Below are positions 8,075-55,949 of a stretch of DNA of 64,000 nucleotides, in pieces (position 1 is the first letter of the stretch; the number at the start of each line of letters is the position of its first letter). The notes under the pieces are model-generated. The model searched no databases, was not told the DNA's origin, and saw only the letters and a program-made list of their open reading frames with translations. A program made the position numbers and the translations under genes. Origin of the DNA: Bacteroidia bacterium (GTDB taxonomy: Bacteria > Bacteroidota > Bacteroidia > Flavobacteriales_D > Sanyastnellaceae); NCBI GenBank assembly GCA_030427925.1, contig JAUICJ010000011.1, positions 1-64,000 of the forward strand. Direction: 5' to 3'.

Positions 8075-8632
8075 ATGAAAACCCTTCGTTCTTCTTCGTT
8101 GATTGGGGGCTTGCTGCTCCTCGGGGTCAGCACCTTGGATTTGAGCTCGATGTGCCATCCGTCGGAAGCGGCGGTGGCGGCCCGCGAATCGGTGTTGCGG
8201 GCGGCGGAGGACCACGCGCCGGTGTCCGCCGCTGCGGTAGAAGGCCAGCCGAAAGAATTGACGTGGCGCACGCTGGAAGACGTGGTCTTCACGGACGTTT
8301 ACATGGAATCGCTCGAGTCGTTCTACTGGAAACCGACCTTCGGTCCGGAGGTGGAGGCTGTCAGCGGCAGCCACGTGCACATCACGGGGTACATCATTCC
8401 CGTGGATTTGGACGAAGACTTCTACGTGCTGAGCCGGTATCCCTACGCGAACTGCTTCTTCTGCGGAGGCGCCGGGCCGGAATCGGTTGTGGATCTGCGG
8501 TTTGAAGGCGGCTCGAAGCGGGTGTACCAAACCGATGAACGCCTGACCTTCTCCGGCACCCTCCGCCTCAACGCGGACGACATCTACCAAATGAACTACA
8601 TCCTCGACGGCGCCGTCGAGTACACGCCATGA
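8075..8632 (+). CDS. DUF3299 family exported protein
   Basis: A 185-aa protein with an N-terminal hydrophobic signal (SSLIGGLLLLGVS). The ATG at 8075 is chosen because the signal starts there. An ATG at 8057 overlapping the permease stop would add six residues. The core shows GYIIPVDLDEDF and PYANCFFCGGAGPES, the conserved CFFCG motif of DUF3299. In other bacteria DUF3299 proteins are often encoded beside LolD/FtsX-type ABC pairs, as here, and their role is unknown. The cysteine pair could bind metal or form a disulfide. The start is 10 bases after the permease stop, and the stop overlaps the next gene by 4 bases. Confidence 0.8.
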   Translation: MKTLRSSSLIGGLLLLGVSTLDLSSMCHPSEAAVAARESVLRAAEDHAPVSAAAVEGQPKELTWRTLEDVVFTDVYMESLESFYWKPTFGPEVEAVSGSHVHITGYIIPVDLDEDFYVLSRYPYANCFFCGGAGPESVVDLRFEGGSKRVYQTDERLTFSGTLRLNADDIYQMNYILDGAVEYTP

Positions 8633-9012
8633 CGCCGGCGGTGGTGGCCATCCACCTCGCCACCGTGCTTCCCGCAGCCCTCATCGGGACCGCTTTGATG
8701 GCGATGCGCAAAGGATCGAACCGGCACCGGCTCCTGGGGAAAACCTACCTCATCCTCATGGCCTTCACGGGGATGTGGACGCTGTTCATGCCGTCGTTCT
8801 TCCCGTTGATTGGCGGGCATTTCGGCCCCTTGCATGCCTTGAGTTTGTTGACGATTTGGACAGTCCCCACCGCCTGGCGCGCGGCACGCCGGGGCAACAT
8901 CCGCGGACACCGCAGCGCGATGATCCAATTGTACATCGGTGGCATCCTGTTGGCAGGTGGTTGGGCGGTCTTCGGACCCGGGCGGTACTTGAATCAGCTG
9001 CTCTTCAACTGA
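8629..9012 (+). CDS. DUF2306-type four-helix membrane protein
   Basis: A 127-aa polytopic protein with four predicted TM helices. The motif pattern, an early HLA, then KGSNRHRLLGKTY, a mid-helix GPLHALSL and a later IRGHRSAMIQLYIG, fits DUF2306. Members of that family have paired histidines in helices that suggest haem b or copper binding, though this is unproven. It overlaps the DUF3299 gene by 4 bases and closes the four-gene unit. It converges on trhO with a 6-base gap. Confidence 0.7.
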   Translation: MTPAVVAIHLATVLPAALIGTALMAMRKGSNRHRLLGKTYLILMAFTGMWTLFMPSFFPLIGGHFGPLHALSLLTIWTVPTAWRAARRGNIRGHRSAMIQLYIGGILLAGGWAVFGPGRYLNQLLFN

Positions 9013-9018
9013 CACGCG

Positions 9019-10080
9019 TCACCGGGGCCGAACGGCGCTCAAGGTTTCGGGCGACAAAGCGGGACGCTTCGGACGCAACCGGCCTTTGCTGTAGCGCTCG
9101 CGGGCTTGGTGGCCCTTGCGCAGCGCGGCTTGTTCTTCTTCGGGCAGGTGAATGGTCTGCTGGCATTCCACCCCGCACGTCCCTTCGAACTGCTCGGCGC
9201 AGGAGGGGCATTGAATGAACAACAGGTTGCACGCGAGGTTCTTGCAGTTCGTGTGATCGTCGCACGGGGCGCCGCATTGGTGGCAGCTGGCCACCACGTC
9301 GTCCGAAATGCGCTCCGCCATCCGTTCGTCAAAAACGAAGTTCTTCCCGATGTACAAGTTGTCGAGCCCTTGCTCGCGGACCTGGCGGGTGTACTCGATG
9401 ATGCCGCCATTGAGCTGGTGGACGTTCGGGAAACCGCGGTGCTTGAGCCACGCGGAGGCTTTTTCGCACCGAATTCCACCGGTGCAGTACATGACGATGT
9501 TGCGGTCGTTTTGGCCTTCCAACATGTGTTCCACCTGCTCAATTTCCTCGCGGAACGTGTCCACATCGGGCAAAATCGCGCCCTTGAAGTGGCCCACCTC
9601 GCTCTCGTAGTGGTTGCGCATGTCAATCAAAATCGTGTCCTCCTGCTGGATCAACTCGTTGAACTCCGGGGCATTCAGGTGCACGCCGCAATCGCGCACA
9701 TCGAACGTCTCGTCGTTGAGTCCGTCCGCCACGATTTTCGGGCGCACCTTGACGATGAGCTTGAAGAACGACTTGCCCTCGTCGACCGCGAGGTTGAGGC
9801 GGATGCCTTCAAGGAAGTCGATGCTGTAGAGGTGGGTGCAAAACGCATCGAACTGCTCCGTCGGAACGGAGATTTGTGCGTTGATGCCTTCGTAGGCGAC
9901 GTAGGTCCGGCCGAGGATGTCCATGGACTCCCAGTGGAGGAACATGTAGTCGCGGAAGAATTGCGGATTCTCGATGCGGGCGTACTGGTAGAACGAAACC
10001 GTCGTCCGTTCACGCTGCTCGTCGCGCATGCGTTGAATCAACACCTTCCGATCGACCAAGTTGCGCAATTCGTGCTTCAT
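9019..10080 (-). CDS. trhO: tRNA uridine(34) hydroxylase TrhO
   Basis: A 353-aa YceA/TrhO protein. The N-terminal domain (about residues 25-120) leads into a rhodanese domain with the active-site loop CTGGIRC; C199 is the catalytic cysteine. A C-terminal cysteine-rich segment (CHQCGAPC, CKNLAC, CPSC) probably binds metal. TrhO makes 5-hydroxyuridine at the tRNA wobble position in an O2-dependent reaction. The length matches the family. It is monocistronic, with a -7-like box 55 bases upstream. Confidence 0.93.
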   Translation of the reverse strand: MKHELRNLVDRKVLIQRMRDEQRERTTVSFYQYARIENPQFFRDYMFLHWESMDILGRTYVAYEGINAQISVPTEQFDAFCTHLYSIDFLEGIRLNLAVDEGKSFFKLIVKVRPKIVADGLNDETFDVRDCGVHLNAPEFNELIQQEDTILIDMRNHYESEVGHFKGAILPDVDTFREEIEQVEHMLEGQNDRNIVMYCTGGIRCEKASAWLKHRGFPNVHQLNGGIIEYTRQVREQGLDNLYIGKNFVFDERMAERISDDVVASCHQCGAPCDDHTNCKNLACNLLFIQCPSCAEQFEGTCGVECQQTIHLPEEEQAALRKGHQARERYSKGRLRPKRPALSPETLSAVRPR

Positions 10081-12577: not shown

Positions 12578-14335
12578 TCAGTGGATCTCCTCGCCCGGAA
12601 TCGCCGGAGTGATCTGAGAAACGAAGTCCTCCTCGTGTGCAGGGTTCGAGTAATCGTAAGCCCAACGGTGCACTTCGGGCAAGGCACCCGGCCAGTTGCC
12701 GTGAACGTGCTCGACTGGCGTCGTCCACTCCAGTGTGTTGGAGCGCCATGGGTTTTGGACGGCGACTTGGCCGCGGAACATGCTGTAGAAGAAGTTGAAC
12801 AGGAAGAACAACTGACCCAACGCACCCACGATTGCGAACACCGAAATGACCGGCTGCAAATCCATCACGAAATCGAGGTACTCAAACGCCGAATAATCGT
12901 AGTAACGACGCGGTGCACCTGCGATGCCCACGAAGTGCATCGGGAAGAAAACGCCGTAGCCCGAAATGATCGTGATCCAGAAGTGCACAAAGCCCAACTT
13001 CGTATTCATCATGCGACCGAACATTTTCGGGAACCAGTGGTAAACCCCAGCCAACATCCCGAAGATGGCGGACATGCCCATCACAATGTGGAAGTGAGCC
13101 ACAACGAAATAGGTGTCGTGCACGCTAACGTCCAACGCGGAGTCTGCGAGGATGATGCCCGTCAAACCACCGGTAACGAAGGTGCTGACCAAGCCCACGC
13201 TGAACAACATCGCCGGTGTGAAGCGGAGATTCCCCTGCCACAAGGTCGTGATGTAGTTGAAGGCCTTGACCGCAGAAGGAATGGCAATCAACAAGGTCGT
13301 GAAGACGAATACGCTGCCGAGGAACGGGTTCATTCCCGTCACGAACATGTGGTGTCCCCAAACGATGAAGCTCAAGAAACCGATGCCCAAGATCGAACCG
13401 ACCATCGCCTTGTATCCGAAAATCGGCTTGCGAGCGTTCGTCGCGATGACCTCCGAGCTGATTCCCAGCGCCGGAAGCAACACGATGTACACCTCCGGGT
13501 GGCCGAGGAACCAGAACAAGTGCTGGTACAAAATCGGGCTCCCCCCGGTCACGTCCAACGCCTCCCCTCCGATGAAGATGTCGCTCAAGTAGAACGCCGT
13601 ACCCATCGTCCGGTCCATCAACAACAACACCACGGCCGAAACCAACACCGGGAAGCTCAGCACCCCAAGAACAGCGGTGATCAAGAACGCCCAGATGGTC
13701 AAGGGCAATCGGGTCATTTTCATGCCCTTCGTCCGCAGGTTGATGATGGTCACGATGTAGTTCAGACCGCCCAAGAGCGAAGAGACCACGAAAAGGACCA
13801 TGGAAATCAACCACAACGTCATCCCCATTCCCGAACCCGGCATCGCCTGAGGCAACGCGCTGAGCGGCGGGTAAACTGTCCAACCGCCCGATGCCGCACC
13901 ACCTTCCACGAACAGGGAGAAGATCATGATGACGCTCGAGACAAAGAAGAACCAATAGCTCAACATGTTCAGGAAGCCGCTCGCCATGTCACGCGCACCA
14001 ATCTGGAGCGGAATGAGCAAGTTCGAGAACGTGCCCGACAAGCCACCCGTCAAAACGAAGAACACCATGATGGTGCCGTGGATGGTCACCAAGGCCAAGT
14101 AAGCGTTCCGGTCCAGGACCCCACCAGGAGCCCACTTGCCCAAGAACGTTTCCAAGATGGCAAAGCTTTCACCCGGCCAACCCAACTGCAAGCGGAAGAA
14201 AATGGACAGCATGACCGCCACAATTCCCATGAACACCGCAGTGATCAGGAATTGCTTCGAAATCATTTTGTGGTCCTGCGAGAAGATGAACTTCGAAACG
14301 AAGGACTCTTCGTGGTGGTGTGCGTGATCAGCCAT
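12578..14335 (-). CDS. coxA: Cytochrome c oxidase subunit I
   Basis: A 585-aa haem-copper oxidase catalytic subunit with twelve or more TM helices. Visible ligands are the low-spin haem histidine in TIHGTIMVF, the CuB site GHPEVY (His-Tyr cross-link, with the Glu of the A1-type D channel), WGHHMF for CuB, and VAHFHIVMG carrying the haem a3 and haem a histidines. It reduces O2 to water and pumps protons in the inner membrane. It is the last gene of the act-cox unit, 2 bases after coxB. Subunits III and IV are not encoded next to it. Confidence 0.96.
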   Translation of the reverse strand: MADHAHHHEESFVSKFIFSQDHKMISKQFLITAVFMGIVAVMLSIFFRLQLGWPGESFAILETFLGKWAPGGVLDRNAYLALVTIHGTIMVFFVLTGGLSGTFSNLLIPLQIGARDMASGFLNMLSYWFFFVSSVIMIFSLFVEGGAASGGWTVYPPLSALPQAMPGSGMGMTLWLISMVLFVVSSLLGGLNYIVTIINLRTKGMKMTRLPLTIWAFLITAVLGVLSFPVLVSAVVLLLMDRTMGTAFYLSDIFIGGEALDVTGGSPILYQHLFWFLGHPEVYIVLLPALGISSEVIATNARKPIFGYKAMVGSILGIGFLSFIVWGHHMFVTGMNPFLGSVFVFTTLLIAIPSAVKAFNYITTLWQGNLRFTPAMLFSVGLVSTFVTGGLTGIILADSALDVSVHDTYFVVAHFHIVMGMSAIFGMLAGVYHWFPKMFGRMMNTKLGFVHFWITIISGYGVFFPMHFVGIAGAPRRYYDYSAFEYLDFVMDLQPVISVFAIVGALGQLFFLFNFFYSMFRGQVAVQNPWRSNTLEWTTPVEHVHGNWPGALPEVHRWAYDYSNPAHEEDFVSQITPAIPGEEIH

Positions 14336-49646: not shown

Positions 49647-50248
49647 TTCGTGTGATTTTCCATGCGATCGATGAGCTCATTCAGGCCGTCTTGCCAGTGG
49701 TGGTGGTTGTCGATGACCACGTCCGCCTCCGCTTTCCACGGCTCGATGTAGGCCAAATCCGCAGGCCGCACATGCCGACGCCACTGGTACAACACCTCGT
49801 CCTCCGTGTACCCGCGCTCCGACCCATCCCGCCGAATCCGCCGCTGCAACCGCACCTCCTCCGGCGCGTCGATGTACCCCACCAAATCCGCCCGTTCCCG
49901 CATCCCGTCGTACGCCATGGCAAACAGCCCCTCCACCACCAACCACTCCGCCGGCTCGATGACGATCTCCTCCGACTGCATCACGTCCCGGTTGTACGTG
50001 TACGTCGCCAGCCGCACCGACTCCCCACGCGCCAACCGGTCCACATCGGCCAGCAGCGCCTCGTGGTCGATGACTTCCGGCAAATCGAAATTCGTTTCCC
50101 CGGCGTCGTCCACCGGAAGTTGGTCCTTGGGTTTGTAGTAGTCGTCCAACGACAGGACGGCCACGCGCTCATCGAAATGGGAGCGCAATCCGCGGAGCAC
50201 GGTCGATTTGCCGCTTCCGCTTCCTCCGATCAGGACAGCGATGTTCAT
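49643..50248 (-). CDS. udk: Uridine kinase family protein
   Basis: A 201-aa P-loop kinase with Walker A GGSGSGKST, the substrate loop SLDDYYKP and VVEGLFA. The size matches uridine/cytidine kinase in pyrimidine salvage. The start at 50248 (ATGA overlap with GH3) is chosen over a long upstream frame that is a GH3 shadow. Phosphoribulokinase-like relatives exist, so nucleoside specificity is probable rather than certain. Confidence 0.85.
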   Translation of the reverse strand: MNIAVLIGGSGSGKSTVLRGLRSHFDERVAVLSLDDYYKPKDQLPVDDAGETNFDLPEVIDHEALLADVDRLARGESVRLATYTYNRDVMQSEEIVIEPAEWLVVEGLFAMAYDGMRERADLVGYIDAPEEVRLQRRIRRDGSERGYTEDEVLYQWRRHVRPADLAYIEPWKAEADVVIDNHHHWQDGLNELIDRMENHTK

Positions 50249-51738
50249 GGGGTGAGGAGTTCGGCCATCGCGCGGTCGTTCGCGAGGCGGGGGATTTTGT
50301 TTTGGCCACCGAGCTTGCCTTTGCGGCGCATCGCTTGGTGGAAGGCGCCGGCGGGCAACGGGGTGAGGCGGGCGGGCTGCAGCACCGAGCCGGTGATGAG
50401 GTCCCGGTAGTACGGGTTGCGCCGTTGCAGGGCCGCATCGAGGGCGGCGCTGAAGGCGGCGAGGTCGGTGGGTTGCGCGTCGAACTCGACGAGCCATTCG
50501 TGGAAGGGCAGGTCGCCGGCGGGCGGCGTGACTTGGGGCGCGACGTGGAATTCGCGGACCACGCCCCCGTGGGCGGCGACCGCCTCCTGCATCGCCCCCT
50601 CGACCTCTTCGGCGATGACGTGTTCGCCGAAGGCGCTCGTGAAGTGCTTGATGCGGCCCGTGACGACGATGCGCGGCGGGTCGAGCGAAACGAATCGCAC
50701 GGTGTCGCCAATGTCGTAGGCCCAAAGCCCCGCGTTGTTGCTCAGCACCACCGCGTACTGCGTGTCCAGCTCCACCTCGTCGATGCCGAGGCGGGGCGGG
50801 GTTTCGTCGAAGTACCGGTCCGCCGGAATGAACTCGAAAAAGATGCCGTCGGCGGTGTTGAGTAAGAGGCCGGGCGCGGTTTGGCTATCCTGAAAAGCGA
50901 GGAAGCCCTCCGATGCCGGGTAGAGCTCCACGACCGGCACGTCCGCCCCGATGAGCTGGCGGAAGCGCTCGCGGTACGGCTCAAACGCCACGCCGCCGTA
51001 AACGAACAGCTCGAAGCGCGGAAACACCTCCTTCACCGTCGCCTTGCCCGTGTGCGCCAGCAGCCGCTCGAAGTACATCTGCACCCAACTCGGAATCCCG
51101 CTAATCAGCCGCAAATCCTCCCCCGCCGTTTCCCGCACGATCGCCTCCACCTTTTCCTCCCAATCCTCGATCGTGTTCGTCTCAAACGAAGGCAACCGGT
51201 TCTTCTGCAAATAGCCCGGCACGTGGTGCGCCACAATGCCGCTCAACCGCCCGAGCGGCACCCCGCCCGGCGTCTCCGCGAGCGTGGGCGACCCCTGCAA
51301 GAAGATCATCTTGCCGTCCACGAAATCCGCCTTCCCCGTCTCCGCGATGTACGCGAGCAGCGCATTCCGCGCGCTACCGATGTGGTTCGGCAGGCTCTCG
51401 CGCGTGAGGGGAATGTACTTCGCGCCGCTCGTCGTGCCGCTCGTTTTGCAGAAATAGAGCGGCTTTCCAGGCCAAACCACGCCCTCCTCCCCGGCCACAG
51501 CCCGGTCCATCCACGGCTTCAACCCCTCGTAATCCCGCACGGGCACCGCCGCCCGAAAGTCCGCCGGGCTCATGTCGGCGTGCAGCCCGTGCTCCCGCCC
51601 GAAGGCGGTCTGGGCACCCCGCAGCATGAGCTCCCGGAACACAGCATCCTGCGCCGCAACCGGATCCGCCGTTCGCCGCCGCAGCCCGCGCAAGGCCCAG
51701 CGGGCGAAGGGCTTGCTGAGTTGTGCCTTCCATCCCAT
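50245..51738 (-). CDS. GH3 family acyl-adenylating enzyme
   Basis: A 497-aa GH3-type protein. The start at 51738 is chosen because the preceding 46 codons cross the divergent promoter. The ATP-binding stretch FCKTSGTTSGAKYIPLT, then ELYPASEG and VVTGRIKHF are typical of the ANL superfamily. In plants GH3 joins amino acids to jasmonate or auxin. Bacterial GH3 proteins of this size are common in Bacteroidota with unknown acid substrates. It starts the leftward operon with a -7 box 5 bases before its ATG. Confidence 0.86.
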   Translation of the reverse strand: MGWKAQLSKPFARWALRGLRRRTADPVAAQDAVFRELMLRGAQTAFGREHGLHADMSPADFRAAVPVRDYEGLKPWMDRAVAGEEGVVWPGKPLYFCKTSGTTSGAKYIPLTRESLPNHIGSARNALLAYIAETGKADFVDGKMIFLQGSPTLAETPGGVPLGRLSGIVAHHVPGYLQKNRLPSFETNTIEDWEEKVEAIVRETAGEDLRLISGIPSWVQMYFERLLAHTGKATVKEVFPRFELFVYGGVAFEPYRERFRQLIGADVPVVELYPASEGFLAFQDSQTAPGLLLNTADGIFFEFIPADRYFDETPPRLGIDEVELDTQYAVVLSNNAGLWAYDIGDTVRFVSLDPPRIVVTGRIKHFTSAFGEHVIAEEVEGAMQEAVAAHGGVVREFHVAPQVTPPAGDLPFHEWLVEFDAQPTDLAAFSAALDAALQRRNPYYRDLITGSVLQPARLTPLPAGAFHQAMRRKGKLGGQNKIPRLANDRAMAELLTP

Positions 51739-51788: not shown

Positions 51789-53354
51789 ATGTGGATGTCC
51801 GCTCTTCTGCACCCCCGACGCCGCCTGACGGCCGCTGCCGTTGAAGTGGCGATCCACCGCCGCGGCTTACCGGCACCGCTTCCGGGTCAATTCTGCGTCA
51901 TCGAAGTGACGTTGAACGGGCACACAGAACGCCGTTCCTTTTCCATCGTCGGGGTGGACGCCGAAGGCCGGTGGCTCCTCGGCATCAAGCAGGCGCGCAC
52001 GGGCGGCGTTTCGGAGTGGGTGAATCGGCTGACGGAGCCCGCGGAAGTGGCGGTTGCTGGGCCGTTTGGGGAGTTTGGACCGCTGGAAGCGGAGCGCCAC
52101 GTGCTCGTGGCCGGGGGGAGCGGCATCACGCCGATTTGGGCGGTGACGCAGGCGTTGTTGGCGGCGGGCGCTCGGCCGGAATTGTGGTTTGGCAACGACC
52201 GCCCGGAGGACGCGATGTACGGGGACGAGATCCGGCAGGCCGCGGCTTCAGGCCAAATCACCCTCCACGAAGTCCACGACCGCCGCTTCACCCCCGACCT
52301 CACCCCCTCCACCGCCCTCTACGTCTGCGGCCCCCCCGGCCTCCTGTCCGCCTTGCAGCCGCTCCTCACCGCCCACCCCGCCCACCTCACGGCCCTGGAA
52401 TCCTACGGCCCGGCCCCGGGCGAAGGCATAGCGGCCCAACTGACCTGGCAGCCCCGCTTCGGCCGCAGCGCCTCCACCACCGGCCAAACCGGCGCAACCC
52501 TGCTCGAAACGGCGACCGAGGCCGGCTGGCCCTGGGACCACGCGTGCGGCGTCGGCGCATGCGGCACCTGCCGCGTCGCCCTCCAGTCCGGCGCCGTCGA
52601 CTGCGCGGGCCAGCGGCACGAAGCCGGCGAGGAAGTCCTCTCCTGCATCGCCCGCCCGCTCACCCCCCACGTCACCCTCAAGCCCGCGCGGGGCTGGCGA
52701 CGGCCCGAAGCGGTCGCGGCCGCCCTCGTCCTCGCCGTCCTGTCCATCGGCCTCTGGGCCGTCCCCCCAGGCATGGGCTTCCGCGCGCAAGGGCCGCTCA
52801 ACACAGGCCACCAAAGCCTCGCGTGCGGGGACTGCCACCGCGACGCCCCCGGCACGGTCCGCCAACAACTGAGCCACAACGCCCGGGGCCTCCTCGGCCT
52901 CCACGACGCCCCCTGGGTCGACGTCCTCTACGGCCCGGTCGGCAACGCCGCATGCCTCGCATGCCATGACCGGCCCAACGACCGCCACCCCACGTCCCGC
53001 TTCGAAGAACTCCGCTTCGCCGAACAACGCGCGACCCTCGGTCCGCACGAATGCAACAACTGCCACGGCGAGCACCACGGCGAGCGCGTCGCCGCCGTCG
53101 AGCCGGGCTTCTGCGTGAACTGCCACAGCGACCTCGAGGTGGAGGATGACCCGATCGATGTGCCGCATGCGGATTTGGTCTCGGCCGAAAACTGGGCCAG
53201 CTGCCTGACCTGCCACGACTTCCACGGAAACCACGAACGCCCGGCGCCCACGCGCATGGCCGACCGCCTCAGCGAAGCCGCCGTGCGCGCCTACTTCGCC
53301 GGCGAGGCCGACCCCTACGGCGACGAAAAACGCTACACCGCCACCCAGCCATGA
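51789..53354 (+). CDS. NAD(P)H reductase-[2Fe-2S]-pentahaem cytochrome fusion
   Basis: A 521-aa four-part chain. Residues 10-100 are a flavin-binding barrel with RRSFSIVG. Residues 104-205 are the NAD(P)-binding domain with VAGGSGITPI and CGPPG. Residues 225-300 are a plant-type [2Fe-2S] ferredoxin with CGVGACGTC (C253, C258, C261) and C286. One TM helix (about 307-324) follows. The C-terminal 190 residues hold five CXXCH haem sites: CGDCH at 346, CLACH at 389, CNNCH at 422, CVNCH at 442 and CLTCH at 472. With the reductase inside and haems outside, it would carry electrons from cytosolic NAD(P)H into the periplasm. The combination is unusual. The next gene overlaps by 4 bases. Confidence 0.88.
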   Translation: MWMSALLHPRRRLTAAAVEVAIHRRGLPAPLPGQFCVIEVTLNGHTERRSFSIVGVDAEGRWLLGIKQARTGGVSEWVNRLTEPAEVAVAGPFGEFGPLEAERHVLVAGGSGITPIWAVTQALLAAGARPELWFGNDRPEDAMYGDEIRQAAASGQITLHEVHDRRFTPDLTPSTALYVCGPPGLLSALQPLLTAHPAHLTALESYGPAPGEGIAAQLTWQPRFGRSASTTGQTGATLLETATEAGWPWDHACGVGACGTCRVALQSGAVDCAGQRHEAGEEVLSCIARPLTPHVTLKPARGWRRPEAVAAALVLAVLSIGLWAVPPGMGFRAQGPLNTGHQSLACGDCHRDAPGTVRQQLSHNARGLLGLHDAPWVDVLYGPVGNAACLACHDRPNDRHPTSRFEELRFAEQRATLGPHECNNCHGEHHGERVAAVEPGFCVNCHSDLEVEDDPIDVPHADLVSAENWASCLTCHDFHGNHERPAPTRMADRLSEAAVRAYFAGEADPYGDEKRYTATQP

Positions 53355-54427
53355 ACTTCCTCCTCAGCTTCCTCCTCCTCACGGACACGACGTACACCGC
53401 GGAATTGCAAGTCCGCCCGCGAACCGAATGGCGCGACGGGTACAAGGTCGTCCAAACGGCCGCCGATGCTTCCACCCTCGCCACGCAACAGCGGACGCGC
53501 ATCGGACTGACGGCCTCGTTTCCGCGCTGGGAAGTGAAGGTCGGCTTGCAGGACGTGCGGACCTACGGTGCCGACGGGCAGGTCGGGACGTACGAGGCCT
53601 GGGGCGCGTGGAAGGTGAGCGACCAAACCCGCATCACCCTCGGCCGCCAAGCCATCCAATTCGACGACGAGCGCGTGGTGGGCGCCCTCGACTGGGCCCA
53701 AACCGGCCGCTTCCTCGACGGCATCCGGCTCACCCACCGCAGCGGTCTCGGCCTCACGAGCGCGGTCTACACCCGCGACCCTGCGACGTTGTTGCATCGG
53801 TCGATGCTCCACCACGTTTATGAAGGGAGCGGGCACCGGGTGGCGGGCTTGCTGTTCGACGAGCGGTCGCCCGTGGAGTCGCGCTTCACGGCGGGCCTGA
53901 ACTACAAATACCGCAGCGAGTCCGGCTGGTTCGCCGGCTTGGAACTCGACGGGCAGTTCACCGATTCGACCTTTGCGAGCTTGTTCGCAGCCGAAGTCGG
54001 CCACCAAGGCACGGGGCGCACGACGCTGGGCCTCGACCGGCTGAGCGGCGGCGACGAAACGGCGTTCAACCCGATGCTCGGCACGAACCACAAATGGTAC
54101 GGGTGGATGGACCACTTCTACGTGGGGACGATGGCCGACGGGCTGTTCAATGCGCGGCTCGCGCACGTCCGGCCGCTGGGAAAGGGCGCCTCCATCGGCA
54201 TCATCGCGCACCACTTCCGAACCCCCGACGCAGGGCGGTTGTTGGGCAATGAGGTCGACACCCACGTGACGTTCAAACCGACGAAGGAAATCAACGCGAC
54301 CATCGGGTACTCCGCGATGGTGGCGGGCGAGGCCCATGCGGAACGGCAGGGCCGCCCCTTCGAAGCGGGCGTGCTGCAGCAGTGGGGGTGGATTTCGGTT
54401 TCGTTCTTCCCGCAATGGTTACTTTGA
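53351..54427 (+). CDS. Alginate-export-type outer-membrane beta-barrel
   Basis: A 358-aa protein with a short hydrophobic N-terminus, then a barrel. LQVRPRTEWRDGYK, GLQDVRTYG and ITLGRQAIQFDDERVVG match the alginate_exp (AlgE-like) family, and the end (ISVSFFPQWLL) is a barrel-like strand. No substrate can be inferred, because many members are only named by homology. Because it is coupled to the cytochrome fusion (ATGA overlap), it may act as an outer-membrane passage for a substrate or as the sleeve of an electron conduit. It is not an MtrB homologue by any motif I can see. Confidence 0.78.
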   Translation: MNFLLSFLLLTDTTYTAELQVRPRTEWRDGYKVVQTAADASTLATQQRTRIGLTASFPRWEVKVGLQDVRTYGADGQVGTYEAWGAWKVSDQTRITLGRQAIQFDDERVVGALDWAQTGRFLDGIRLTHRSGLGLTSAVYTRDPATLLHRSMLHHVYEGSGHRVAGLLFDERSPVESRFTAGLNYKYRSESGWFAGLELDGQFTDSTFASLFAAEVGHQGTGRTTLGLDRLSGGDETAFNPMLGTNHKWYGWMDHFYVGTMADGLFNARLAHVRPLGKGASIGIIAHHFRTPDAGRLLGNEVDTHVTFKPTKEINATIGYSAMVAGEAHAERQGRPFEAGVLQQWGWISVSFFPQWLL

Positions 54428-54428
54428 T

Positions 54429-55250
54429 ATGAAAGCGATTCGATTTTGGGCGGTCCTTGGGGTCGCGGGGGCGGCGGTGCTGACCTACTTGTTCGCGACG
54501 GCGCCCGCGCCGCTGACTTCGGAGGCTTCGGCGAAGCCCGTCCTTTCGACGGCGGATGCGTTGACCTTGCTGGCGCACGAAAACGACGTGACGCGCACGC
54601 TGTTCACGAAGGCGATCGTGGGGGCGGGCAAGCCGCAGGGCTTGAAGTTTTCGGAGCATTGGGCGGATCCGGACGTGGTGGCGGGGCCGTTGCCGGCGCT
54701 GTTTTTGCGGGGCGTGGCTTCGCATTTGGCCTCGAGCGAAGTGCCCCTCGGGCTGTTCCTCGGCAGCGACCACCCGATCGAAAGTTCGAACCGGTTCCAG
54801 GGGCGGCAAGCGGAGGAATTTCAAGCGATGCGCGCTGAACCGGCGCCGCGCATCTTCACCGACGCGGCGAGCGGCGACGTCATCGGCATGTTTCCCGACT
54901 TCGCGTCGGCGCCGGCGTGCGTGAGCTGCCACAACGAGCACGAGCGGAGCGCGAAGACGGACTGGGCACTGAACGACCTGATGGGCGCCACGACGTGGTC
55001 CTACCCGAAAGACAGCGTCACGACGGACGAGTTCCTGGCGATGCTGAAGGCGTACCGCGCGGGCGTGGCGGCGGTTTGGACGGCCTACCTCGCGGAGGTG
55101 GACCAAATCCCCGCCGACTCCCGCCCCACCGTCGGCCCCCGCTGGCCCTCGCACGGCTTCGCCCTCCCGGACCTGGCGACCCTGCAGGACAGCATCGACG
55201 AGTTGGCCTCCCCGCGCGTCCTGGACCGCCTCGTAGCCGCAGCCCGATGA
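54429..55250 (+). CDS. Tll0287-like (DUF3365) single-haem protein
   Basis: A 273-aa exported or membrane-anchored protein with an N-terminal TM segment (about residues 6-22). The core has IESSNRFQGRQAEEFQA and the single haem motif CVSCHNEH. Both are typical of the DUF3365/Tll0287-like haem domain, which in other proteins serves as a redox sensor or periplasmic electron carrier. It lies one base after the barrel gene and overlaps the next gene by 4 bases. Confidence 0.78.
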   Translation: MKAIRFWAVLGVAGAAVLTYLFATAPAPLTSEASAKPVLSTADALTLLAHENDVTRTLFTKAIVGAGKPQGLKFSEHWADPDVVAGPLPALFLRGVASHLASSEVPLGLFLGSDHPIESSNRFQGRQAEEFQAMRAEPAPRIFTDAASGDVIGMFPDFASAPACVSCHNEHERSAKTDWALNDLMGATTWSYPKDSVTTDEFLAMLKAYRAGVAAVWTAYLAEVDQIPADSRPTVGPRWPSHGFALPDLATLQDSIDELASPRVLDRLVAAAR

Positions 55251-55690
55251 ACCGCTGGGTCGCCGTCAGCACCGTGGCGGGCTTCCTCGCCTTGACCGTT
55301 GGCTCCCTGACGGGCTGGTCGGGCTTCGCGGGCCAATTCGACCCGACCTACCGCGCCATCTCGGGACTGACCGTGGCGGGCCTGATCGCGGGCCAGTGGG
55401 CGCTCACCTTAGGCCGTACCGTCTTCGAGCGCACAGGCCGTTCCTGGGACCGCTGGGTCCAGGTCCACCACCTCATCGGCCTCGCTTTGCCGTTGGCCGT
55501 TTGGGCGCACAGCCCGCGCTTCGGCTACGGCCTGCTCGCCGCCCTGCCGCTGGCCCTCTTCGGGTCCGCGTGGTGCGGCACCCGCCTCAGCGCCGGCCAG
55601 CAGCGGTGGCTTCCGTGGCACGTCGGCCTCGCCGGCCTCACCGCGGCCATGACGCTCGTGCACCTGTACATGGTGGTGGCGTACAACTGA
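55247..55690 (+). CDS. Small membrane protein, putative di-haem cytochrome b
   Basis: A 147-aa protein with four TM helices. Histidines lie in pairs on two helices: H74/H75 with H88 (13-14 apart) and H125 with H139 (14 apart). This is the spacing of the two stacked bis-His haems of ferric reductase/NOX-type and related b cytochromes. No enzyme domain is attached, so it would be a bare haem relay in the inner membrane. It ends the four-gene unit, with ATGA overlap to the previous gene. The family is not named with certainty; the haem call is inference from spacing. Confidence 0.65.
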   Translation: MNRWVAVSTVAGFLALTVGSLTGWSGFAGQFDPTYRAISGLTVAGLIAGQWALTLGRTVFERTGRSWDRWVQVHHLIGLALPLAVWAHSPRFGYGLLAALPLALFGSAWCGTRLSAGQQRWLPWHVGLAGLTAAMTLVHLYMVVAYN

Positions 55691-55721
55691 ACTTGTTCGG
55701 GCGCAACGTCGGCTCGCTCAA

Positions 55722-55740
55722 ATTGAAATCCCCACTTTCG
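55722..55740 (-). repeat. Intergenic repeat, copy 1 (inverted)
   Basis: Read on the minus strand: CGAAAGTGGGGATTTCAAT, 19 bases identical to the core of copy 2. Copies 1 and 2 thus form a perfect 19-base inverted repeat around a 46-base loop. Some weaker similarity continues left to about 55701. Confidence 0.85.
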
Positions 55741-55786
55741 GGCGAGTGGTGAACGGATCCCTGTTCGTTTCGACCCTCCCTCACCG

Positions 55787-55831
55787 CGAAAGTGGGGATT
55801 TCAATCACAGCGGAACGAATTTTTGCAGCGC
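55787..55831 (+). repeat. Intergenic repeat, copy 2
   Basis: Core CGAAAGTGGGGATTTCAAT, then CACAGCGGAACGAA and a T-rich tail ending CAGCGC. Aligned with copy 3 it matches at 40 of 45 positions, after allowing a two-A insertion in copy 3. Confidence 0.85.
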
Positions 55832-55902
55832 GACGGCCAAAAACACGCTTCATCGGGATCGTCCCTCCCACAACGGCCAAAGCCCTCCGTGCCCCGCTTC
55901 CC

Positions 55903-55949
55903 CGAAAAAGTGGGGATTTCAATCACAGCAGAACGAACTTCTTCAACGC
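55903..55949 (+). repeat. Intergenic repeat, copy 3
   Basis: CGAAAAAGTGGGGATTTCAAT, then CACAGCAGAACGAA and CTTCTTCAACGC. The unit is 118 bp downstream of copy 2 at the shared GTGGGG. It ends at the base of the terminator stem. Confidence 0.85.

Follow-up and report, generated by a model that had tools for sequence, protein, structure and literature searches.

A strictly linked pentahaem, Cache-fold haem and cytochrome b module, fused to a flavin reductase in one Bacteroidota clade: a candidate trans-membrane electron-export chain

Introduction

In the genome of a member of the Bacteroidia, a single polypeptide joins a flavin reductase and a ferredoxin to a five-haem cytochrome c, and the question raised by this arrangement is where the electrons of such a protein would go. 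Its gene is the first of a four-gene operon at positions 51789-55690 (+ strand) of the window, by which we mean the whole 64,000-nucleotide stretch of DNA analyzed (positions 1 to 64,000 of contig JAUICJ010000011.1, assembly GCA_030427925.1); the genome comprises 2.95 Mb in 51 contigs, the window lying on contig 32. An earlier note, made from the letters of the window, read the operon as a conduit carrying electrons from cytosolic NAD(P)H through flavin, an iron-sulfur cluster and haems, perhaps via a cytochrome b, to a periplasmic or extracellular acceptor across an outer-membrane barrel.

The operon contains a real, conserved and apparently undescribed electron-export module, of which the fusion is a clade-specific form. 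A pentahaem cytochrome c, a Cache-fold haem c protein and a di-haem cytochrome b are the unit of selection, because their genes are always neighbors and their CXXCH motifs and histidines are invariant. Domain content, invariant cofactor ligands, strict linkage and the fusion of a reductase to two different members of this unit are observed directly. Judged from sequence, it is likely that these parts form an electron-export chain as such, and the whole explanation developed below, weighted to that chain, is reasonably probable. That the Cache-fold protein is the terminal catalytic subunit would have somewhat less than an even chance, and nitric oxide (NO) or a similar small reactive species as the substrate at its haem is a tentative best guess. 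No description of the operon was found in the open-access literature searched, including papers on DUF3365 and Tll0287.

A three-gene core with variable reductases

Relatives were sought with the haem domain of gene 1 as the query, because the whole gene mostly returned FNR-type reductases matching its N-terminal part alone; among 60 relatives, the only match to the whole of gene 1 came from a same-genus genome. A haem-domain scan of 84,980 species confirmed 234 relatives, or roughly 0.3% of species as a lower bound, and the best 80 were fetched, a selection that favors sequences near that of the window. Some of the genomes are drafts and may miss genes. At E<=1e-15, no other genome in a 395-genome sample of the phylum contained the haem domain.

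The pentahaem, DUF3365 and gene 4 homologs adjoin in 80/80 judgeable loci, the exception being L067, a contig that ends inside the haem domain. Carriers belong to at least seven phyla, namely Bacteroidota, Pseudomonadota, Methylomirabilota, Nitrospirota, Myxococcota, Chloroflexota, and Gemmatimonadota, with Pseudomonadota represented among the best 80 of 234 by Methylococcales and Rhodobacterales. Another copy is carried on a plasmid of Flammeovirga kamogawensis.

The reductase occupies different positions around this core. It is fused to the pentahaem in 23 members (21 fetched loci, L036, and the window), L036 being counted as fused because a stretch of N accounts for its seeming split. These members form one Bacteroidota clade in the haem tree (support 98/87), comprising Flavobacteriales, Saprospiraceae and one Allomuricauda (L046), and an assembly error was ruled out as the source of the fusion, since all 23 share it. 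The reductase-ferredoxin has a gene of its own in Flavobacteriaceae, Reichenbachiella, and Flammeovirga, and a flavohaemoglobin-family globin is encoded near it, in the same operon, in 35 loci. Another 17 loci, in other phyla, have the three core genes only, with no reductase nearby and, Methylomirabilota excepted, with unrelated neighbors, as in Pseudomonadota and Nitrospirota. Finally, in L045 (Anaerolineae, Chloroflexota; 8427-9827) the gene 4 homolog carries a BFD [2Fe-2S]-FAD-NAD reductase fused at its N-terminus. A similar-looking fusion in L065 (Gemmatimonadota; 882-1856) shows the NAD domain only, just under the cut-off, and the Gemmatimonadota reductase is probably also fused to gene 4; N-terminal reductase fusions to gene 4 were seen only in L045 and apparently L065. 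That a reductase has become joined to one member of the unit in some lineages and to another elsewhere is strong indirect evidence that these proteins belong to one chain.

Several further features of these loci were recorded. The L045 and L065 fusions resemble a bacterial NOX-like protein with reversed domain order. Cytochrome c assembly genes lie in or beside the operon at L055:7290-9884, L100:7365-9896, and L074:11031-14191, and are CcmF-like in L100 and, by its start, in L055, and of the ResB plus Cytochrom_C_asm kind in L074. In Flammeovirga, Reichenbachiella, and L100, hemA and a globin precede the operon. By these sequence assignments, genes for making haem and for attaching it accompany the operon in some lineages. 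In a Nitrospirota locus, a gene for a hemerythrin-domain protein (L062:8351-8755) follows the module at a distance of about 0.6 kb.

The operon and its reductase-pentahaem fusion

The four genes lie on the + strand at 51789-53354, 53351-54427, 54429-55250, and 55247-55690, with ATGA overlaps between genes 1 and 2 and between genes 3 and 4 and with 1 nt between genes 2 and 3. The same-genus relative G001, a Flavobacteriales metagenome-assembled genome, has all four in identical order. The four-gene operon proposed in the earlier note agrees with these coordinates, as does its one-base gap, while its count of three ATGA overlaps falls to two. Its assignments for the first three genes, a reductase-ferredoxin-haem fusion in one 521-aa chain, an alginate_exp barrel and a DUF3365 single-haem protein, were all borne out by the evidence given below for each.

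Gene 1 (51789..53354) is a reductase-ferredoxin-helix-pentahaem fusion of 521 aa, identified from Pfam matches, motifs, an ortholog in G001 with 68% identity, and the fused clade. FNR-type FAD- and NAD-binding domains occupy aa 1-212 (52424 being the last position of this part, which begins with the gene) and are predicted to be cytosolic; they match FAD_binding_6 at 22.9 bits (cut-off 21.1) and NAD_binding_1 at 31.6 bits (cut-off 22). A plant-type [2Fe-2S] ferredoxin domain follows at aa 228-290 (52470..52658), with a Fer2 match of 37.2 bits (cut-off 21, E=2.8e-9) and cluster cysteines at 253, 258, 261, and 286. With all three domains above cut-off, with RSFS, GGSGITP, and CX4CX2C motifs, and with phthalate dioxygenase reductase 2pia matching aa 44-294 (E=2.6e-18), this half has the composition of phthalate dioxygenase reductase-like FNR/[2Fe-2S] enzymes. 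One hydrophobic helix, at about residues 308-327 (52710..52769; Kyte-Doolittle 2.29 over 19 residues at aa 308), separates the predicted cytosolic reductase from the predicted periplasmic haems, and a trans-membrane helix was found in every scorable fused homolog.

The pentahaem cytochrome c domain (aa 333-515; 52785..53333) matches Cytochrom_c3_2 at 31.4 bits (cut-off 25) and has CXXCH sites at residues 346, 389, 422, 442, and 472 (52824-52838, 52953-52967, 53052-53066, 53112-53126, and 53202-53216). Five such sites are not due to chance, because 20,000 shuffles of the haem part gave a mean of 0.036 and a maximum of 2. All five are invariant in 82/82 pentahaem sequences, as are six additional histidines (341, 400, 429, 460, 479, and 482). 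Similarities to known multihaem proteins are weak: the haem part scores 24.1 bits against the MtrC/MtrF pentahaem domain PF22113, below the cut-off of 30, and weakly resembles DmsE and OmcA/MtrC models, and its profile gave weak matches only in the PDB, to NrfH, NrfA, and OmcS. The earlier statement that these proteins share no motif with Mtr was therefore slightly wrong, given this sub-threshold similarity. The window genome was scanned for other multihaem proteins with PF09699, a model that misses gene 1 itself.

The two halves of the fusion would fall on the membrane sides required by each cofactor. Gene 1 cannot wire its own iron-sulfur cluster to its own haems, because its single trans-membrane helix has no cofactor; gene 4 would supply the membrane-crossing step.

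A compact predicted cytochrome b and the direction of electron flow

Gene 4 (55247..55690, + strand, 147 aa) encodes a predicted five-helix di-haem cytochrome b of the ferric-reductase/NOX/MsrQ type. Its model (predicted local distance difference test, pLDDT, 92.7) has five long helices at 3-21, 33-58, 64-88, 96-115, and 119-146. Histidines 74 and 88 (55466-55468 and 55508-55510) and 125 and 139 (55619-55621 and 55661-55663), spaced by 14 within each pair, are invariant in 81/81 sequences and sit on predicted helices 3 (64-88) and 5 (119-146). The earlier description of a small protein with four trans-membrane helices and paired histidines was thus right about the histidines and one helix short.

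Histidine pairs of this pattern are used to define NOX/FRD proteins (PMC5676040). Gene 4 has the two His-x12/14-His pairs of that group, with five predicted helices in place of six and with the reductase on gene 1 in place of a C-terminal FAD/NADPH dehydrogenase on the same chain; because these last two features differ, gene 4 is a relative of the NOX/FRD kind and is not filed as a NOX. Ferric_reduct (PF01794) matches gene 4 itself at E=0.22 and 26/46 of its homologs at E<=1 (best 1.9e-5), and DUF4405 matches 9/46; both families are classes of trans-membrane cytochromes (PMC11334425). No match was obtained with its sequence profile against the PDB or with Foldseek at E<=0.001. Fold comparison of the model gave superoxide oxidase (Z 9.9), SpNOX (9.6), NOX5 (8.5), and STEAP2 (8.3), alongside talin bundles at up to 10.9.

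The constant company of the pentahaem, DUF3365, and gene 4 proteins, the two reductase fusions and the histidine pairs of gene 4 together make a cytosol-to-periplasm chain well supported. In the proposed mechanism, gene 1 would bracket the membrane: the FAD of its cytosolic half would accept a hydride from NAD(P)H, and its [2Fe-2S] cluster would split that hydride into single electrons. The two stacked bis-His b haems of gene 4 would carry each electron across the inner membrane and pass it to the five c haems in the periplasmic half of gene 1, and the pentahaem would then reduce gene 3. We infer this path, NAD(P)H to FAD, [2Fe-2S], two haems b, five haems c and the gene 3 haem, together with the occupancy of the haem sites, the outward direction, the place of gene 3 at the chain end, and the substrate. 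The route from NAD(P)H to the periplasm in the earlier note holds up on these three lines of evidence, and the cytochrome b that it named as a possibility becomes the central step, given the two His-x13-His pairs that gene 4 keeps invariant on helices 3 and 5.

Inward flow would have a periplasmic donor oxidized at gene 3 and the pentahaem, with NAD(P)+ or ferredoxin being reduced. Such cofactors are reversible in principle and the three-gene loci have no reductase, both of which would accommodate it; yet the potential of c haems is normally well above that of NADH, making flow toward NADH uphill without a driving force, and NOX, MsrPQ, and ferric reductases of like layout run outwards (PMC5676040). 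Inward flow is very unlikely.

A stand-alone Cache-fold haem protein

Gene 3 (54429..55250, + strand) encodes a stand-alone DUF3365/sCache_heme mono-haem protein of 273 aa with an N-terminal membrane anchor or signal and one CXXCH site (54918-54932). The protein scores 21.8 bits against the Tll0287-like/DUF3365 family, 2.3 under the cut-off of 24.1, and 44/44 aligned homologs match this family (PF11845) at E<=0.1 (best 2.6e-10). Its model (pLDDT 93.9) has Tll0287 (5b82) as the best fold match at Z 9.6, the next standing at 6.6; its sequence profile found no match in the PDB. The CXXCH is invariant in 80/80 sequences and is inserted in the Cache fold, as in sCache_heme proteins generally. No conserved extra cysteine, of the kind that serves as the distal ligand in the Tll0287 subgroup, occurs in the 80 gene 3 sequences. 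Invariant in all 80 are N52, R56, and T60, placed one turn apart on the first helix, which we take to be the helix that carries the Cys ligand in Tll0287. An exchangeable distal site with polar neighbors would suit a substrate.

DUF3365 was named sCache_heme in a 2026 preprint, according to which a signaling member without an axial Cys binds NO tightly, and stand-alone proteins make up about half of the family and have no assigned function (PMC12889525). Gene 3 is proposed to be the terminal, substrate-binding subunit of the chain, at which a small molecule of the periplasm would be reduced; the likeliest candidates are reactive nitrogen or oxygen species, NO among them.

The protein could alternatively be a redox or NO sensor whose haem is kept reduced by the rest of the operon, making the whole a signaling or haem-maintenance device. 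DUF3365 is a Cache sensor fold, its signaling members sense NO (PMC12889525), and gene 3 has fold matches among sensor domains. No kinase, methyl-accepting chemotaxis protein or cyclase output domain was found in gene 3 or its homologs, however, all of which stand alone, and seven further haems, a flavin, and an iron-sulfur cluster would be costly upkeep for one haem. A sensor is thus an improbable reading.

Nitrate, nitric oxide and the candidate substrate

A small reactive substrate is favored for three reasons: the 35 globin loci echo the Bradyrhizobium Bjgb-Flp operon, which detoxifies NO arising in nitrate assimilation (PMC4724949); Methylomirabilota loci adjoin NorB-type genes, with NorB/COX1-type genes and a small c-type cytochrome preceding the module (L044:1-6200, L040:1-2893); and the Cys-less sCache_heme protein described in the preprint binds NO tightly (PMC12889525), gene 3 likewise having no such Cys.

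Nitrate assimilation itself was considered, with the reductase serving nitrate reductase and globin, and with an auxiliary role for the haem genes. Most Flavobacteriaceae loci and L100 do lie among genes for a NasC-like nitrate reductase, NirB, NirD, NarK, and NMT1-type ABC transport, much as flp does in Bradyrhizobium. These surroundings are limited to the Bacteroidota layout with a split reductase, however, and three-gene loci of Pseudomonadota and Nitrospirota have unrelated neighbors. The earlier note had held that its conduit would fall if all homologous operons sat in nitrate, sulfur or polysaccharide gene sets, and nitrate genes accompany one layout only. In most Flavobacteriales genomes of the window clade no nitrate-reductase-class molybdopterin protein was found. 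The window genome has one distant 84-bit molybdopterin match, in a 1047-aa frame, which is probably an ActB-type subunit of alternative complex III, and within the fused clade the Allomuricauda member L046 stands apart, having a strong nitrate-reductase-class match. A nitrate system was ruled out for the window, there being no nitrate-reductase-class molybdopterin match in its clade, and as a general account nitrate assimilation is highly unlikely.

An NO reductase as an obligate partner was also ruled out, since PF22085 occurs in only 3/39 genomes searched (38 module carriers besides the window's own). The window genome has COX1-family matches of 593 and 747 aa, which by size look like terminal oxidases. 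A haem-copper oxidase subunit I gene lies in the window itself at 12836-14263 on the - strand (COX1, 460 bits), and two COX1 genes, one in the window and one elsewhere, suggest an aerobic host. As far as these searches show, denitrification by the cell itself does not provide the substrate.

Several observations weigh against NO reduction at gene 3. Nitrate- or NO-related neighbors are absent beside window-clade loci, including the single-domain globin with flavin reductase that is present in 35 other loci, and neither qNOR nor NorB was found in the window-clade genomes searched; the NO proposal accordingly draws on other lineages. A stand-alone Pseudomonas putida protein with Cys/His ligation, the sole stand-alone sCache_heme protein tested, looks redox-active and binds NO weakly even without its Cys (PMC12889525), and gene 3 may serve as a redox relay or a sensor rather than as an enzyme. 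For the chain itself, the fold matches of the gene 4 model fall within the range of unrelated helical bundles, and with 17 reductase-less loci NAD(P)H is not supported as a universal donor. With these points taken in, it is a speculative proposal that the module represents a trans-membrane reductase class not described before, spread over at least seven phyla, in which a Cache-fold haem protein, a sensor fold turned periplasmic enzyme, receives electrons from a di-haem b and a pentahaem c and reduces NO or another small reactive molecule.

The outer-membrane barrel

Gene 2 (53351..54427, + strand) encodes an accessory outer-membrane barrel of 358 aa, assigned to Alginate_exp by a Pfam match of 28.2 bits (cut-off 25.2). 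Its profile found no relative in the PDB, the only match being an unrelated enzyme at E=0.99. A barrel lies within 1.5 kb in 12/21 fetched loci classed as fused; it is inside the operon in the window and these 12, and elsewhere nearby in L028 and L036. No barrel was within reach in 7/22 fused loci with complete downstream sequence (L029, L035, L041, L043, L046, L059, and L082), and the 17 reductase-less loci likewise have none within 10 kb; related barrels lie within 10 kb in 23/35 globin loci. An obligatory barrel conduit was ruled out on this distribution.

The side-by-side position of a pentahaem, a barrel, and cytochrome genes in the window nevertheless invites the reading, close to that of the earlier note, that the chain serves a dedicated acceptor in the periplasm or outer membrane, reached by soluble carriers or by way of the barrel, as in iron reduction, metal uptake or extracellular electron transfer, with gene 3 as a relay. 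The weak likeness of the pentahaem to MtrC/MtrF, DmsE, and OmcA/MtrC models and the weak Ferric_reduct match of gene 4 point the same way. The barrel is small, haem-free and frequently missing, however, the pentahaem is tied to the inner membrane, and the operon encodes no extracellular cytochrome. Gene 2 is an Alginate_exp barrel and not of the MtrB type, and gene 1, with five haems, an inner-membrane anchor, and PF22113 under cut-off, is not an MtrC/F-type outer-membrane decahaem. We consider such an acceptor unlikely. The barrel conduit of the earlier note does not survive, with a barrel so often absent and a pentahaem whose cytosolic N-terminus keeps it at the inner membrane. In the electron-export chain preferred here, gene 2 would be an accessory porin and not a wire, and letting the cluster's substrate or product through is a better fit for it than sheathing a wire.

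Flanking sequences

Downstream of the operon, at 55715-55949, lie GAAAGTGGGGATTTCAAT-type repeats, with two direct 58-nt copies and one inverted copy. The repeat core has 15 copies in the window genome (<=1 mismatch), with none in a reversed control or in G001, and the element is a dispersed, lineage-specific intergenic repeat. The divergent upstream gene (50245-51738, - strand) reads like a GH3-family protein.

Comparison with known systems

The module shares parts with several known systems. Like MtrCAB, the operon pairs a multihaem c protein with a barrel, and the pentahaem has weak similarity to MtrC/F; it differs in its inner-membrane anchored haem protein, its small, non-obligatory barrel of another family, and the absence of an extracellular cytochrome. 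The Flavobacteriaceae layout resembles Bjgb-Flp in keeping a globin, an FAD/NAD reductase, NarK, NasC-like, and transport genes together, whereas the published operon names no pentahaem, DUF3365 or cytochrome b (PMC4724949) and the window operon has no globin or nitrate genes beside it.

With NOX/FRD proteins such as SpNOX, the module shares a predicted path from NAD(P)H through FAD to two bis-His haems b, His-x13-His pairs on helices 3 and 5, and electron export, but it has five predicted helices instead of six, an added [2Fe-2S] cluster, and a reductase on another chain, fused to the pentahaem, and its electrons would continue to c haems. The order of flavin reductase, membrane cytochrome, and periplasmic redox protein recalls MsrPQ with Fre and the DUF4405/PepSY-type systems, DUF4405 and Ferric_reduct being the two families that gene 4 weakly matches; the periplasmic partners here are a pentahaem and an sCache_heme protein, not a molybdoenzyme or a flavinylated protein. 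The module adds a compact five-helix member to the electron-exporting trans-membrane cytochromes, and in the fusion a single polypeptide holds the flavin at one end of the chain and the c haems at the other.

Gene 3 shares with sCache_heme proteins and Tll0287 the Cache fold with an inserted CXXCH and the stand-alone form, and departs from them in having no distal Cys, about 110 additional residues, strong conservation, and fixed partners in the pentahaem and cytochrome b, a linkage that the available part of the 2026 preprint does not describe (PMC12889525). This strict linkage gives a subgroup of stand-alone sCache_heme proteins fixed partners and a power supply, and makes its role testable. 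If gene 3 is indeed an enzyme, a sensor fold would have become the active subunit of a reductase across many phyla.

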